A stretch of 37,199 bases of DNA from a virus: the IMG/VR virus record IMGVR_UViG_3300017739_000034, positions 1 to 37,199 of that record; one strand, written 5' to 3'. The notes below the pieces were generated by a model, which did no database searches, was not told the origin of the DNA, and saw nothing but the letters and a program-made list of their open reading frames with translations. The position numbers were made by a program, and so were the translations under genes. Below are positions 2,588-21,328 of the stretch, piece after piece. Each line of letters opens with the position of its first letter. The stretch's first letter is position 1.

Positions 2588-3015
2588 TGAATCTGGAAAA
2601 ACTGCAGGAACTGTGGAAGACAGATTGTCAGATCGATACTGATTTGTATTGTGAAGAGTCAATCAAGATTCCACAGTTACATCAAAGGTATTTGGAATTT
2701 TATAATACATACTCTCTTATGAAGAAAGAGAAAGAGGGTACGTTAAATGCATTAAAGAAAGATAAATGGTTGTACTATAAAGGAAAGGCATCATCTCAAA
2801 TCTACAAAGAGATGCCATTTGATTTAAAACTTACTACTAAAGAAGAGATCTGGATGTTCATCGATGCAGATGAAGACGTCCGCAAGTTACGTTATAAGAT
2901 TGATTATATTGATCAAGTATTATATTTCTTGGAAAATGTTCTGAAACAAATCAATACTAGGAACTTTCAAATCAAGAATGCTATTGAATGGACTAAGTGG
3001 AAAGAAGGTTCTTAA
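2587..3015 (+). CDS. uvsY: UvsY recombination mediator
   Basis: A 142-residue protein resembling T4 UvsY (137 residues): an N-terminal 'LEKLQELWKTDCQID' helix, a central 'KDKWLYYKGKA' segment matching T4's conserved lysine/tyrosine region, and a C-terminal 'NVLKQINTRNFQIKNAIEW' like the T4 end 'IKSRGFAIKHIQDM'. In T4, UvsY helps UvsX displace gp32 from single-stranded DNA and nucleates the recombination filament. UvsX is encoded at 25603 in this window. It is followed by uvsW after a 36-nt gap, as part of the same recombination cluster. Confidence 0.88.
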   Translation: MNLEKLQELWKTDCQIDTDLYCEESIKIPQLHQRYLEFYNTYSLMKKEKEGTLNALKKDKWLYYKGKASSQIYKEMPFDLKLTTKEEIWMFIDADEDVRKLRYKIDYIDQVLYFLENVLKQINTRNFQIKNAIEWTKWKEGS

Positions 3016-3051
3016 TACTCTGATACATAGTGTAGTGAAGTAAACTCACCT

Positions 3052-4524
3052 ATGTCAATGGATCTTAAGATCAAGAAGAAGAATGAAGTATATCTTAAGG
3101 TTCAAGCAGAACCTCATATAAATTACGAGTTATCGGATTTCTTTACCTTCGAGGTTGAGTCTGCAAAGTTTATGCAGAAGCAAAGAAGGTGGAAAGGATG
3201 GGATGGAAAGATAAGATTATACTCTCCTGCTACAGGGGAGATCTATTGTGGTCTCTATGATTATTTGGTTGACTACGCAAAGAAGAAGGGATACGAGTAT
3301 GAGACGGAGACCGATGAGAATTTTGGTCATCCCGAAGATGTGAATAAGTTTGTGACTCCTGAGGCAGTTGCAGGTTATATGAAATCACTGAATCTTCCTG
3401 TGAAGGTACGCGACTACCAATATCAAGCAGTATACGAATGCCTGAGATACAACAGACGACTCCTATTGTCGCCAACTGCAAGCGGGAAATCCTTGATGAT
3501 TTATTCATTGGTTAGGTATCATGAAAAGTTAGACAGAAGAATTCTAATTGTTGTTCCCACGACGTCTCTTGTTGAGCAAATGTACAAAGACTTTGAATCC
3601 TATGGATGGAAAGCGTCTGACTATTGCCACAAAATATACGCGGGGCAAGAAAAATACACGAATCATGAAGTAGTAATCACCACTTGGCAGAGTATTTACA
3701 AGGAACCTAGTCAATGGTTTAGCAAATTTGATGTCGTGATCGGTGACGAGGCGCACCAATTCAAAGCTAAATCTCTTACTTCTCTTATGGGTAAGTTGCA
3801 TAACTGTAAGTATAGGTATGGATTTACAGGGACACTTGATGGTGCAAATGTAAATCAGTTAACTCTAGAAGGATTGTTTGGTAGATGTACACAAGTAACA
3901 AGAACTAACGAGTTAATGAAGCAAGGATATATTGCAAAACTGAAAGTTAAAATTGTATTATTGAAGCACGAAGAACAACTCTTCGAGGGGTATCAGGATG
4001 AGATGAGTTATCTTGTAGAGCATGAAGGACGGAATAGATTCATCCGTAACCTTGCTGCAGATCTAAAAGGAAATACATTGATCCTCTTTAACTATGTAGA
4101 GCGTCATGGGGAACCTTTGTTTAACTTGATAAATAGTCATGTGGAACGTCCAGTACATTTCGTTCACGGTGGTGTAGACGTTGAAGATCGAGAAGAGATT
4201 CGACAACTTACTGAAGTGTCTGACGATGCTATCATCATTGCCAGTTACGGAACGTTCTCTACAGGGATTAATATCAAAAACTTGCATAATGTAATTTTTG
4301 CTTCTCCTTCAAAATCAAGAGTCAGGAACTTACAGTCCATTGGGCGAGTATTAAGGAAAGGAGAAAACAAATCACAAGCGACTTTGTATGATATTGCGGA
4401 TGACATTTCTACTGATCGTGGAAATAACTATACTTTAAATCATCTATTAGAACGAGTGAAAGTATACAATGAAGAAAAATTTAATTATGAAATTATAGAC
4501 GTAAAACTAAAAGCCTATGATTAA
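3052..4524 (+). CDS. uvsW: UvsW DNA/RNA-DNA helicase
   Basis: A 490-residue superfamily 2 helicase. Visible motifs are Walker A 'SPTASGKSL' near residue 140, the DEAH box in 'VVIGDEAHQFKA' near 232, motif III 'GFTGTLDG', and motif VI 'QSIGRVLRKGENK'. Length and order fit T4 UvsW (about 500 residues), including the small N-terminal DNA-binding domain ('RRWKGWDGKIRLY'). UvsW unwinds R-loops and branched recombination intermediates, which shuts off origin-dependent replication and drives fork reversal. It lies just after uvsY and overlaps the next gene by 8 nt. Confidence 0.93.
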   Translation: MSMDLKIKKKNEVYLKVQAEPHINYELSDFFTFEVESAKFMQKQRRWKGWDGKIRLYSPATGEIYCGLYDYLVDYAKKKGYEYETETDENFGHPEDVNKFVTPEAVAGYMKSLNLPVKVRDYQYQAVYECLRYNRRLLLSPTASGKSLMIYSLVRYHEKLDRRILIVVPTTSLVEQMYKDFESYGWKASDYCHKIYAGQEKYTNHEVVITTWQSIYKEPSQWFSKFDVVIGDEAHQFKAKSLTSLMGKLHNCKYRYGFTGTLDGANVNQLTLEGLFGRCTQVTRTNELMKQGYIAKLKVKIVLLKHEEQLFEGYQDEMSYLVEHEGRNRFIRNLAADLKGNTLILFNYVERHGEPLFNLINSHVERPVHFVHGGVDVEDREEIRQLTEVSDDAIIIASYGTFSTGINIKNLHNVIFASPSKSRVRNLQSIGRVLRKGENKSQATLYDIADDISTDRGNNYTLNHLLERVKVYNEEKFNYEIIDVKLKAYD

Positions 4525-18351: not shown

Positions 18352-18962
18352 ATGTTAAATGGATCTCAATAGGTGTAGTCGGTAGTTTATTTGCTGCTTC
18401 TCATATTGGTATGATTGGTATGCTTGCAACTAGAAACGAGTCTAAAATACCACAGTTAAACCTGCCTGCAGGACCTTATACTTCTTACGTTGCTACTGCA
18501 GACGAATCTGGATATAAGATTAGTTACAAAGCAAATGATCCTAAGACGATGTACATCACTAAGGACATTGTAAAACCTTCTGGGTTTCTCGGATTCGGGA
18601 GAACCAAGACACAAGTTGTTGAAGAGTACGTCATGGACGGATCAACCAATCAAGGTGGACCTGTATCCAATGCTCGCTCATGGCAAGATGGTAGTGCAGG
18701 AGGCAAAGCAGGAATCTCAAAAAAGTCTGTCGCGTGTATCGAGGCGGTCGGTGGTGGCAAACAAACGGGACGTCTTGTCGGGACTAGCGTAGGTGCTGCT
18801 GTTGCTCCTGCTGTCACTGGAATCCCATTTGTTGGTTGGTTAGCAGCAGGTTGGATTGCTATGTTCGGTGGAGAACAAGGTTCAGAGATAGGTGGTAATA
18901 TGGTTAATGATCTCAATGATGCATGTGAGGTAGACGATGGAGATACCAACAATAAGGATTGA
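18348..18962 (+). CDS. membrane protein with glycine-zipper region
   Basis: A 204-residue protein: an N-terminal hydrophobic stretch (WISIGVVGSLFAASHIGMIG), a soluble middle, and a C-terminal glycine/alanine-rich region (VGTSVGAAVAPAVTGIPF, GWLAAGWIAMFGGEQGSEIG). Glycine-zipper segments can insert into or pack within membranes, as in pore-forming or DNA-ejection proteins (inference). The last 26 nt overlap the next gene. Confidence 0.6.
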   Translation: MNVKWISIGVVGSLFAASHIGMIGMLATRNESKIPQLNLPAGPYTSYVATADESGYKISYKANDPKTMYITKDIVKPSGFLGFGRTKTQVVEEYVMDGSTNQGGPVSNARSWQDGSAGGKAGISKKSVACIEAVGGGKQTGRLVGTSVGAAVAPAVTGIPFVGWLAAGWIAMFGGEQGSEIGGNMVNDLNDACEVDDGDTNNKD

Positions 18963-19716
18963 TCAAGGTCAAATCCAAACTATCAATGTCAGAAACAATT
19001 ACATAAGTGATATACCGAAATGGTTAACATCGGATCCCCCTCAGGCGATTCCGATATATCCTCCTGTCACTCAACAGATTGGTGTACCTATCATCAACAT
19101 TCCTGGATGTGTTGAGGCACATGAACGTAGTGATAAGAATGATAATATTGTAGGTGACGATCCTAAGGGTGCGAGGATATTTTGTGATGCAGGTTTACCT
19201 TCATTCAATCCTATTGATTACTCACCAGAACAGTTACAGTATGAAATGCAGGCACCAGTTCCACCTGTAGCACCACCTCCAGATGATGTAGAAACTGATA
19301 CTGATATACCTCCAGTCAAACCTCCACCTACTGAGTGCCCTGGACCTAATCAACCTAGAGTTGGTGACCTAACAGCAAGTGGAGATGAAAGAGTTATTGG
19401 TCACGAACTAAGTGAAGATGGTAAAATCTGTGTAGTATTATATGAAGATACAACTGCAGTCGAAAAATTTCTACCAACTGCAAATCAAGTCAGCACTACT
19501 GCATCGATTGCTGTAGTAGCTACCGCTGCTGCTGCAGCAACACCATTATTATTGAGAGTTGTCAAACCTATAGTCAAACAAATTATTAAAAAGATTCAGA
19601 AGTTACTAGGTAAAGAACCTCGTCAACCTACTAGAATTGAAGTTAAGGCAAACGCGATTCGTCAAAAGAGAGGGTTACCTCCTTTAAAAGTGAAGCGTCC
19701 GAAGAAACCTCGTTAG
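18937..19716 (+). CDS. proline-rich protein with C-terminal membrane helix and basic tail
   Basis: A 259-residue protein. The middle is proline-rich (QAPVPPVAPPPDD, PPVKPPPTECP). A hydrophobic segment (ASIAVVATAAAAATPLLLRV, about 188-207) precedes a very basic tail (KPIVKQIIKKIQKLLGK and KVKRPKKPR). Cysteines at 57, 82 and 132 region could pair. It may be an envelope or virion protein; no family recognised. The start overlaps the previous gene by 26 nt. The 3' end overlaps the convergent minus-strand gene by 74 nt. Confidence 0.6.
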   Translation: MEIPTIRIDQGQIQTINVRNNYISDIPKWLTSDPPQAIPIYPPVTQQIGVPIINIPGCVEAHERSDKNDNIVGDDPKGARIFCDAGLPSFNPIDYSPEQLQYEMQAPVPPVAPPPDDVETDTDIPPVKPPPTECPGPNQPRVGDLTASGDERVIGHELSEDGKICVVLYEDTTAVEKFLPTANQVSTTASIAVVATAAAAATPLLLRVVKPIVKQIIKKIQKLLGKEPRQPTRIEVKANAIRQKRGLPPLKVKRPKKPR

Positions 19717-20512
19717 GTGTAATCTTATGAACGTGGGGTGTAATAGTATTAACACCTTGTACTACCACGTCAGCACACAGTGAAAAATAAGGTGACTTTG
19801 GATGGAAGGATATACCATCTTTCATTAATGAACCGCAATTTTTTAATCTCGCGATCTCAAAATCCAAGCGTTTATTAGCATTCATCTGATTCATCAATGC
19901 GATGTTTGATGCTGCTGCTTCTTTACATAGTTTCTGGAGTTTCTTATCCATGGGGTTAGACCATGTAGCAGACACACCTATACTTAAATTATAATTATCT
20001 TTCTGTCCTGTTCTTGTCGGAACAAAATATAAAATCTCTCCTGGATTATCTGGCACTCCGTTATCATCTGCGTCTAACATATTGTAGACTGGAGAATCCC
20101 AGTATTGTTCGTTTGGTTTTTGTGCTGATGCACTACCTGTAACGTATGGCGTGACATTCATAGTCGGTCCTTGACATTGGATGCCATTACCATAAGTGTT
20201 AGTTATATACGGTCCTTGTAAAACCTGAATTGCCTGATTGGTAACTGAGCCCGAACTATTTGCAACGGGAGCAGCAGTTGCACTGACTCCCCCTACAGTT
20301 TCCGCAACCGCAGGTATCGCATTTGTTAGTTGTGTTAGACATAGAATTACTGGGAGAAAATACTTGTTGTGTCGGTTACGCTTGTAACCTCGGTAGTCCT
20401 CTGGATTACCGTGTGATTTGAAAGACCTGGGGATTGATAGGTCTCTGTGAACTGAAACGCTGCCCCTGGTGTTGTCTGTGTGAACGTTGGTTTCGTTCCT
20501 ATTCCTGTCCAT
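19643..20512 (-). CDS. exported/anchored protein, overlapped at both ends
   Basis: A 289-residue protein with a 54-residue hydrophilic, basic N-terminus followed by a signal-like segment (YFLPVILCLTQLTNAIPAVA) and a soluble domain with cysteine-bearing motifs (GNGIQCQGP, RLKNCGSLM, SPYFSLCADVVV). I kept ATG 20512 because AAGGAG lies 10 nt upstream (20523-20528) and there is no in-frame ATG, GTG or TTG nearer the signal segment. This start makes the first 166 nt overlap the previous gene out of frame (20347-20512). A -1 frameshift fusion is the alternative. The 3' end overlaps the plus-strand gene by 74 nt. Confidence 0.65.
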   Translation of the reverse strand: MDRNRNETNVHTDNTRGSVSVHRDLSIPRSFKSHGNPEDYRGYKRNRHNKYFLPVILCLTQLTNAIPAVAETVGGVSATAAPVANSSGSVTNQAIQVLQGPYITNTYGNGIQCQGPTMNVTPYVTGSASAQKPNEQYWDSPVYNMLDADDNGVPDNPGEILYFVPTRTGQKDNYNLSIGVSATWSNPMDKKLQKLCKEAAASNIALMNQMNANKRLDFEIARLKNCGSLMKDGISFHPKSPYFSLCADVVVQGVNTITPHVHKITPNEVSSDASLLKEVTLSFDESRLP

Positions 20513-20799
20513 GTCGAAGTCACTCCTTCAATAATTACATTTGATTTCTCAGTGGTAGGGGATAGATTACCACTTGCAGATACGCCTGATCCTGTTACCG
20601 AAAATTGATACCCAGTGTTGTAGTCCATCGAATTGATAGTTTCTACTACTTTTGATGTCGTTTCCGTGTGAGACGTCATCGAGCCTTGTTGAAAATTTGG
20701 CACCACGGGGACCGCAATCGCAGGTGCAGCACTTGTCAAAGCAATAACCGCACCTAGGACATATGTCTTTCTTGTTATTATATATGAAAGGTTCACCAT
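20347..20799 (-). CDS. exported Thr/Ser-rich protein
   Basis: A 150-residue protein with an N-terminal signal peptide (KTYVLGAVIALTSAAPAIA, cleavage likely after AIA or AVA) and a threonine/serine-rich, beta-prone mature part (SVTGSGVSASGNLSPTTEK). GGAG lies 9 nt before the ATG. Its last 166 nt are read in another frame by the next gene. Together with its two neighbours it forms a minus-strand cluster of exported proteins. Function unknown; a virion fibre-like or envelope protein is possible. Confidence 0.68.
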   Translation of the reverse strand: MVNLSYIITRKTYVLGAVIALTSAAPAIAVPVVPNFQQGSMTSHTETTSKVVETINSMDYNTGYQFSVTGSGVSASGNLSPTTEKSNVIIEGVTSTWTGIGTKPTFTQTTPGAAFQFTETYQSPGLSNHTVIQRTTEVTSVTDTTSIFSQ

Positions 20800-20821
20800 A
20801 GTCGTCTTTCTCCATTAAAGT

Positions 20822-21328
20822 CTAGTCAAAGACAGAGATTTCACTAACAAATTGACCAGTAGTTGTAGTACCTGCTAAACCGCCACCTGTAAGAGTAACA
20901 GCATGTGCGTTGGTAACAGTACCAACAGCAGCACTACCTGCAGTACCACCAGAGTAGTGGACTTGATTACCGAACAATGCTTCATCAGTACCTGATCCTG
21001 CAGCATCACCTGCTGTGAATGACTGACTGAAATTGAATGATCCTGATCCAGTTTGTGTTGCTGAAATTTCTCCAACACTTGCAACACCTGTAGTTGCACT
21101 ATAGGAGTTAATACCAATACCACCTGAAACTGCACTACCACCTGATGGTGTGTGTGATGTAGTTACATTCGTACCAGAGATAGAAAAAGCATTACCAACT
21201 CTAGTGTATGAATTGTAACCTGCTTCTACCGTATGTTGTAAACTAGACTGATGTTTACTAACTATTCCACCTGCATGAGCAGCACTTCCTGCCATGAGTA
21301 ACATAACGAGAGGTAAAATTTTCTTCAT
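20822..21328 (-). CDS. exported Gly/Ser/Thr-rich protein
   Basis: A 168-residue protein starting with a textbook signal peptide (MKKILPLVMLLMAGSAAHA, cleavage after AHA) and a mature part made of short Gly, Ser, Thr and Ala-rich beta repeats (TATQTGSGSFNF-like, GGTAGSAAVG, TGGGLAGTTTTG). It is the first gene of the minus-strand cluster, 22 nt before the next start. The composition resembles secreted or fibre proteins. No family recognised. Confidence 0.7.
   Translation of the reverse strand: MKKILPLVMLLMAGSAAHAGGIVSKHQSSLQHTVEAGYNSYTRVGNAFSISGTNVTTSHTPSGGSAVSGGIGINSYSATTGVASVGEISATQTGSGSFNFSQSFTAGDAAGSGTDEALFGNQVHYSGGTAGSAAVGTVTNAHAVTLTGGGLAGTTTTGQFVSEISVFD

Follow-up and report, generated by a model that had tools for sequence, protein, structure and literature searches.

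A conserved 166-nt overlap of two cyanophage genes as the probable source of a basic leader ahead of a signal-like segment

Two consecutive minus-strand genes of a T4-like cyanophage share 166 nt in different reading frames, and comparison across related phages indicates that the downstream gene very probably starts at an internal ATG (position 20512), where the overlap would encode a long, positively charged leader in front of a Sec-like signal. We put the probability of this reading at roughly 0.87. The DNA analyzed, called the window below, is the whole of a 37-kb (37,199-nt) T4-like cyanophage record. Around these genes, it shares 99.6% identity with Synechococcus phage metaG-MbCM1 and 83.5% with P-RSM1, and the records of both phages give Kyanoviridae. 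The features of the overlapping pair are listed here, with a slash at the end of each signal-like segment.

20822..21328, minus strand: T4-GC_237, phrog_564, the preceding gene in the run; signal-like N-terminus
20347..20799, minus strand: upstream gene, T4-GC_236, DUF6322 (PF19847, E 3.1e-41), phrog_650; 150 aa, signal-like segment ending AIA/VPVVPNF
19643..20512, minus strand: downstream gene, T4-GC_235 family, phrog_848; 289 aa, with N-terminal extension, signal-like segment and mature domain with four invariant Cys
20347..20512, minus strand: overlap of the two genes, 166 nt on the same strand, downstream gene in the -1 frame of the upstream gene
20528..20530, minus strand: in-frame TGA closing the downstream frame just upstream of the ATG, 15 nt before it; open stretch of 181 nt
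20523..20528, minus strand: AAGGAG, Shine-Dalgarno-like, with a 10-nt spacer to the downstream ATG; relatives mostly have GG[A/C]GTG at -14..-9
20510..20512, minus strand: ATG of the downstream gene, made of the third base of an upstream Thr/Ser codon and the TG of the upstream Trp codon TGG
20351..20512, minus strand: N-terminal extension of the downstream protein, 54 residues, basic and hydrophilic; its composition was compared with synonymous resamples
20303..20362, minus strand: signal-like hydrophobic segment of the downstream protein, ending AVA/E, residues ~51-70; straddles the upstream stop codon

The gene pair and its conservation

GC_237, GC_236, and GC_235 follow one another on the minus strand, and all three have signal-like N-termini as judged by eye. 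The 289-aa downstream protein matched 435 phage records, and in 401 the match covers 80% or more of the query; the upstream protein matched 406. The PHROGs matched by these genes are of unknown function; the PHROG 848 match spans residues 1-276 of the downstream protein, with the extension inside the matched part. In Pfam, the upstream protein matched DUF6322 only, and the downstream protein, GC_237, and GC_234 had no match up to E 1. Four cysteines in the mature part of the downstream protein (C113, C196, C226, and C246) are invariant across 75 aligned proteins, which fits an oxidizing compartment. AlphaFold2 models of the pair were poor, with a mean pLDDT of 48.9 for the downstream protein and 46.7 for the upstream one.

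Several observations concern the surroundings of the pair. At its 3' end, the downstream gene shares 74 nt (19643..19716) with GC_234 (18937..19716), a convergent gene on the plus strand. This second overlap is also 74 nt in metaG-MbCM1 and P-RSM1, and it measures 4 nt in P-HM1, 221 nt in P-SSM7, and 230 nt in S-RIM12 RW_06_0310. The downstream protein differs in C-terminal length between phages, as noted at L038-L040, L072, and L104; in uncut loci its open frame has from 271 to 364 codons, and in most phages the protein aligns up to about residue 264. In the metaG-MbCM1 record (L002, 1..3522), the annotation splits the gp43 DNA polymerase into four pieces and Hsp20 into two, which suggests errors in that record; the polymerase of the window is one 834-aa ORF. 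A Cys-rich 28-aa ORF in the third frame at 20342 was set aside, as the conserved VGGVSATAAPVAN codons appear to dictate its tail. An exact search for the late-promoter-like TATAAATA gave one match, at 188, and none near GC_235, GC_236, or GC_237. GC_235 and GC_236 are absent from the gene list of the S-PM2 stretch examined, and neither is named in the covered parts of the virion proteomics of Sullivan 2010.

The initial annotation described a 166-nt out-of-frame overlap of two minus-strand genes and proposed a comparison with related phages. The ORF coordinates confirm the overlap, which is no artefact, and the comparison was run by script on 134 loci from IMG/VR contigs and named phages, some contigs being present twice. 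Both genes were found by tblastn in 132 of them (L098 had no match to the downstream gene and L124 none to the upstream gene), and in 129 of these 132 the downstream gene lies in the -1 frame, its codon position 1 being position 3 of the upstream codons. The exceptions are a locus with an insertion (L122), P-HS2 (L123), in which the phase is different, and ACG-2014g (L134), in which the record breaks the frame inside the mature part and the extension is in the usual frame. For counting start positions, L122, P-HS2, and one locus at a contig edge (L037) were left out and L124 was added by hand, giving 130 loci. The ATG stands at exactly 166 nt in 120 of the 130 (91 distinct sequences); these sequences are related and some loci are one contig twice, and this and all other counts and p-values given here overstate independence accordingly. 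In the ten others, the overlap measures 172 (two loci), 175, 178, 292, 307, 310, or 319 nt, begins with a GTG at 112 nt (P-RSP2), or has several possible NTG starts, including ATG at 364 and at 208 (the podovirus P-SSP10, L125). Six further records, found through the cysteine-rich frame described below, have the ATG at 166 nt in three cases and at 172 nt in three, the latter (Syn19, Syn30, and S-E7) with a second in-frame ATG at 139 nt. By its sequence, with both frames kept open and the start conserved across orthologues, the pair can be taken as a real co-directional phase-2 overlap.

Existing annotation of the pair is uneven. Both genes are shown as overlapping in seven of the 19 annotated records with the overlap that we viewed (P-RSM1, S-RIM12 RW_06_0310, P-HM1, P-TIM68, S-IOM18, S-RIM2 R21_2007, and Syn19), while in the other 12 at least one of the two genes is missing or shortened (metaG-MbCM1, P-SSM4, P-RSP2, P-SSP10, P-SSM7, S-SSM6a, S-TIM5, S-SCSM1, ACG-2014g, Syn30, S-CAM1, and S-E7); this count leaves out P-HS2, the unannotated AG-345-O18, and S-PM2. 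A missing or shortened gene removes a signal segment, or the whole gene, from catalogues of marine phages.

Start codon, initiation region, and leader

The exact length of the overlap has a clear reason. According to Sabath 2008 (PMC2542354, available sections), a start codon in this phase must come from a Trp or Cys codon of the upstream gene, and such starts are expected to be rare. Every in-frame NTG in the 130 loci does sit on an upstream Trp or Cys codon. In 126 of the 130, the open stretch holds exactly one TGN codon, a Trp, and the start falls on that Trp. Four records lack the usual Trp (P-SSM7, S-SSM6a, S-RIM12 RW_06_0310, and AG-345-O18), and in them the start lies at the next upstream Trp, with overlaps of 292-319 nt. 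The overlap is thus long because an NTG in the downstream frame needs an upstream Trp or Cys codon and the upstream gene has a single Trp there; its length is an incidental result of the position of tryptophan in the upstream protein.

For finer comparison, 119 loci with the ATG at 166 nt were thinned below 93% identity to 69 representatives, which were chosen for an open-frame ATG. The window has no other in-frame ATG, GTG, or TTG in the overlap or the signal-like segment, as first reported, and the ATG at 20512 is conserved. No other NTG occurs in the overlap in any of the 69, and none up to 30 nt past the upstream stop in 61 of them, the window included. Selected as they were for the ATG, all 69 form its A from the third base of an upstream ACA (33), TCA (33), or CAA (3) codon; A occupies 42% of the third bases of upstream-gene Thr and Ser codons before the overlap and 60% elsewhere within it. 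The AAGGAG noted 10 nt from the start is present in the window but is not universal in relatives: of the 69, 46 have A at base -12, 21 have C, and two have T, and 40 of the 130 loci have none of GGAG, GAGG, AGGA, or AAGG. In 68 of 69, the GTG at -11..-9 retains its final G. Four-fold sites are quiet at the initiation region (GTA in 64/67, ACT in 62/66, GTG in 68/69). The near-fixed GTA and ACT sites lie in a AATGTAACTAT-like stretch at 20531..20541 (minus strand), -29 to -19 from the ATG, which precedes the Shine-Dalgarno region.

The initiation region is less folded than its synonymous variants, with a mean z of +1.05 and values above 0 in 90% of the 69. Four control segments, computed for 40 of the 69 sequences each, gave z from -0.91 to 0.04, and those upstream showed no consistent excess of folding over synonymous variants (-0.91 at -120, 0.04 at -90). 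Consensus folding gave 0.0 kcal/mol from -45 to +40 and -0.66 out to +100. A conserved stimulatory hairpin was considered and dropped, as the folded stretches 22-80 nt upstream differ between phages.

The second frame carries a clear signature of stop avoidance. When the upstream protein was held fixed and synonymous codons were drawn at random, the downstream frame stayed open over 166 nt in 5.8% of draws on average, and it is open in all 69 representatives; these were selected for it, but exactly this start is also found in 120 of the 130 loci, which were not. A stop-forming T before AA, AG, or GA codons was found at 0 of 578 sites in the overlap and at 315 of 914 upstream of it; counted by alignment column, the figures are 0 of 12 in the overlap and 18 of 22 outside (p 3e-6). 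At codons -6, -10, and -11 before the ATG, stops occur in 38, 27, and 24 of the 69, and none occurs after it. Since stops are frequent before the ATG and absent from it onward, the boundary of stop avoidance is the ATG itself.

Composition is biased as well. The basic extension was initially put at 54 residues, which is right to within two or three, as the hydrophobic segment (mean Kyte-Doolittle value 2.15) begins at about residue 52 (median of 69, range 50-63). Compared with stop-free synonymous resamples, the extension has a net charge of +7.3 against +2.6 and a hydropathy of -1.50 against -0.99, and the charge of its last 20 residues is +4.45 compared with +0.81. All 69 representatives show each of these three shifts. 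When the stop-free condition is lifted, the charge is +7.3 against +1.6 and the hydropathy -1.68 against -1.11. The 54 codons upstream, used as a control, have no such shift (charge +2.39 against +3.47, hydropathy -1.38 against -1.37), and the +1 frame has no shift in charge (5.81 against 5.51). However, one 27-codon control was also shifted in hydropathy (-1.61 against -1.28, 94%), and when the overlap's own codon usage was used in resampling the charge excess shrank to 7.30 against 4.47.

Particular residues appear to matter far less. In simple pairwise counts made without a tree, the extension has an NN/NS of 1.37 and an SN/SS of 0.92, and the two upstream control stretches have NN/NS of 1.55 and 2.11, against which weak constraint on the extension residues is possible. 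The upstream protein is constrained (NN/SN 0.27), and its four-fold diversity falls only slightly in the overlap, from 0.53 to 0.45. Overprinting, as the initial annotation called it, holds in that the frame is biased to stay open, basic, and hydrophilic, but the classical mark of overprinting, purifying selection on the residues of the second frame, is little or not at all seen in the extension. On these comparisons, what selection maintains in the second frame is its openness, basic charge, and hydrophilicity, and hardly any particular sequence. The tolerance for such an overlap also has a reason, as the leader seems to need charge and hydrophilicity only.

We propose that ribosomes would initiate the downstream gene at the ATG at 20512, inside the upstream coding sequence, probably helped by ribosomes already translating the upstream gene. 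The overlap would then be translated in two frames, with sequence constraint falling mainly on the upstream C-terminus, and the second frame would supply a leader of about 54 residues, basic and hydrophilic and much like a spacer, acting as a cytoplasmic extended n-region. The hydrophobic segment that follows would direct Sec-type export, probably with cleavage after AxA.

Other accounts of the same geometry are far less probable. The best of them, though improbable, places the start at a non-canonical codon (ATT, CTC, GTA, or the like) beside the signal segment, with the extension never made, and several annotators do place the downstream start farther on. Two exceptional loci suggest that a short leader can suffice. 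In L122, a 177-aa ORF on the opposite strand (2900..3433, minus strand) is inserted at the end of the overlap and splits the pair; the old ATG now opens an ORF of only 46 aa, and the downstream gene has an ATG at 3449 just before the signal. The inserted ORF looked HNH-like by eye, but Pfam gave no match. In P-HS2, the relatives of the two genes lie in a different phase and there is no extension. Both loci suggest that the mature downstream protein may do without the extension, which would make the leader dispensable in principle. A start downstream, in the signal segment, had been named in advance as evidence against an internal start, and this applies in an exceptional locus, L122. A non-canonical start also leaves the 54 stop-free codons, the basic and hydrophilic bias in 69 of 69, and the fixed ATG unexplained.

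Slightly less probable still is a programmed -1 frameshift in the overlap that fuses the two proteins, the internal ATG being incidental. The relative frame of -1 and the openness of the overlap in both frames are what such a frameshift needs. Strict X XXY YYZ heptamers, however, number three in the 69 sequences, scattered and recurring at no column, in agreement with the early remark that no classical slippery heptamer was seen. The stretch of stop avoidance runs back to the ATG, and its limit is that codon rather than a slip site; the ATG and its unfolded initiation region are conserved; almost no consensus RNA structure lies near the start; and a fusion would, we reason, place a second signal segment mid-chain. 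Of the two readings initially offered, internal initiation is thus favored by the fixed ATG, a frame free of stops only downstream of it, and an open initiation region, and frameshift fusion is unsupported. A sequencing error or mis-assembly joining two frames, which was the other point raised against the overlap, can be dismissed: the window is an assembled contig and the polymerase of metaG-MbCM1 is annotated in pieces, but the same geometry recurs in 120 of the 130 loci, which amount to 91 distinct sequences, and independent isolates rule the error out (the cultured P-RSM1 and P-SSM4, and also S-CAM1, S-IOM18, and S-RIM2).

A cysteine-rich frame over the upstream signal segment

The same reasoning as for the overlap above exposed a candidate microprotein ORF at the other end of the upstream gene:

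20567..20815, minus strand: 82-aa ORF with a Cys4 motif (CPRCG...CTC), in the -1 frame of the upstream gene, over its signal-like segment

Among 131 loci with the anchor VPVVP.F, some of which were fetched with the Cys4 ORF as query, 52 (31 distinct) have at least four Cys in the last 30 codons of this frame and no stop. At an E cut-off of 0.01, a 39-aa Cys4 query matched 139 phage records, with identity under 60% in 50 of these, and the ORF was unannotated in all six matching records that were opened. The CxxCG...CxC pattern is invariant in 13 of 13 aligned Cys4 ORFs, rows that were chosen as Cys-rich. A search with these 13 found 209 viral loci, of which 80 were kept (L147-L226). In 79 of the 80, the frame lies over the upstream signal-like segment at one fixed spacing, and the remaining one (L180) is cut by a contig end; no stand-alone copy was found among the 80. 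The nearest NTG is 15-22 codons before the first Cys in each of the 79 (48 ATG, 17 TTG, 14 GTG).

Variation in two groups of relatives is concentrated at position 2 of the upstream codons, which is the third position of the -1 frame. Variable columns at upstream codon positions 1, 2, and 3 number 8/25, 20/25, and 6/25 in group one (n=9, p 2e-5) and 5/16, 13/16, and 3/16 in group two (n=9, p 4.5e-4). These 18 rows came through similarity to the gene pair (15) or through the Cys4 query (L141, L142, and L143), and all had passed the Cys criterion. Outside the search pattern, the excess at position 2 has a p of 0.038 (26 representatives). NN/NS of the Cys4 frame is 0.16 and 0.34 in the two groups. 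Loci that fell short of the Cys criterion gave 1.12, 2.23, and 1.32, and a few of these loci, L025, L104, and L144 among them, may have a shorter version of the motif. A different picture is seen in the window-like group (n=6), with the position bias absent (16, 21, and 18 of 30), stops in L011 and L049, and some Cys missing in L009. We would count the Cys4 microprotein gene as real in the two other groups, judging by this purifying selection, and it is unproven in the clade of the window. Its product is a putative zinc-ribbon-like protein by motif only; the ORF had no Pfam match above cut-off and no PHROG match. As a separate observation, the conserved frame in several groups is that of the Cys4 ORF and not that of the signal peptide.

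Comparison with known overlaps

A literature search of open-access titles and abstract openings found no earlier description of these overlaps. The genes correspond to the cyanomyovirus clusters T4-GC_235 and T4-GC_236, and some records annotate the overlap, though with neither mechanism nor start evidence.

One of the closest likenesses is to two-component spanins with overlapping genes (P2-like, or embedded as in lambda Rz/Rz1), which are likewise pairs of envelope-targeted phage proteins in overlapping same-strand frames and which, in the available part of Kongari 2018 (PMC6139136), are often missed or mis-started by gene callers. Unlike in spanins, the overlap here sits under an N-terminal leader. 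The pair was considered as a spanin and set aside, as the lipobox Cys at +1 is absent in the alignments (A/VPVVPNF in the upstream protein, A/E.VGG in the downstream one). An i-spanin has an N-terminal membrane segment and a periplasmic helix; the downstream protein has a hydrophobic segment, and a helix at 190-231 appears in the poor model only (pLDDT 48.9). No lysis gene is named beside the pair in the records examined.

We give even odds to a broader idea, that in these successive genes for exported proteins leaders serve as an overlap sink, twice and both times in the -1 frame: GC_236, with its constrained C-terminus, would lie over the free leader of GC_235, and, in many relatives, the Cys4 gene over the free signal peptide of GC_236. 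If this is true, N-terminal targeting segments, which are held to a composition and not to a sequence, would be a general place for long real overlaps and hidden genes.

Among prokaryotic overlaps, the pair resembles the long co-directional phase-2 class in orientation, in phase, and in a start derived from a Trp or Cys codon, as far as the consulted part of Sabath 2008 (PMC2542354) describes that class. Conserved, real co-directional overlaps have a precedent in holD-rimI of Enterobacteria, where, in the accessible portion of Palleja 2008 (PMC2478687), the overlap is 32-56 nt and, unlike here, one product is a DNA polymerase subunit and the other an acetyltransferase. That same portion reports, for 338 prokaryotic genomes, no real case among 715 co-directional overlaps of over 60 bp and a longest real one of 56 bp. 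The cyanophage overlap differs from that survey in being found in phages, in being widely conserved, and in its length, mostly 166 nt and up to 319 nt. The 166-nt case counters the rule, as given there, that co-directional overlaps longer than 60 bp are mis-annotations.
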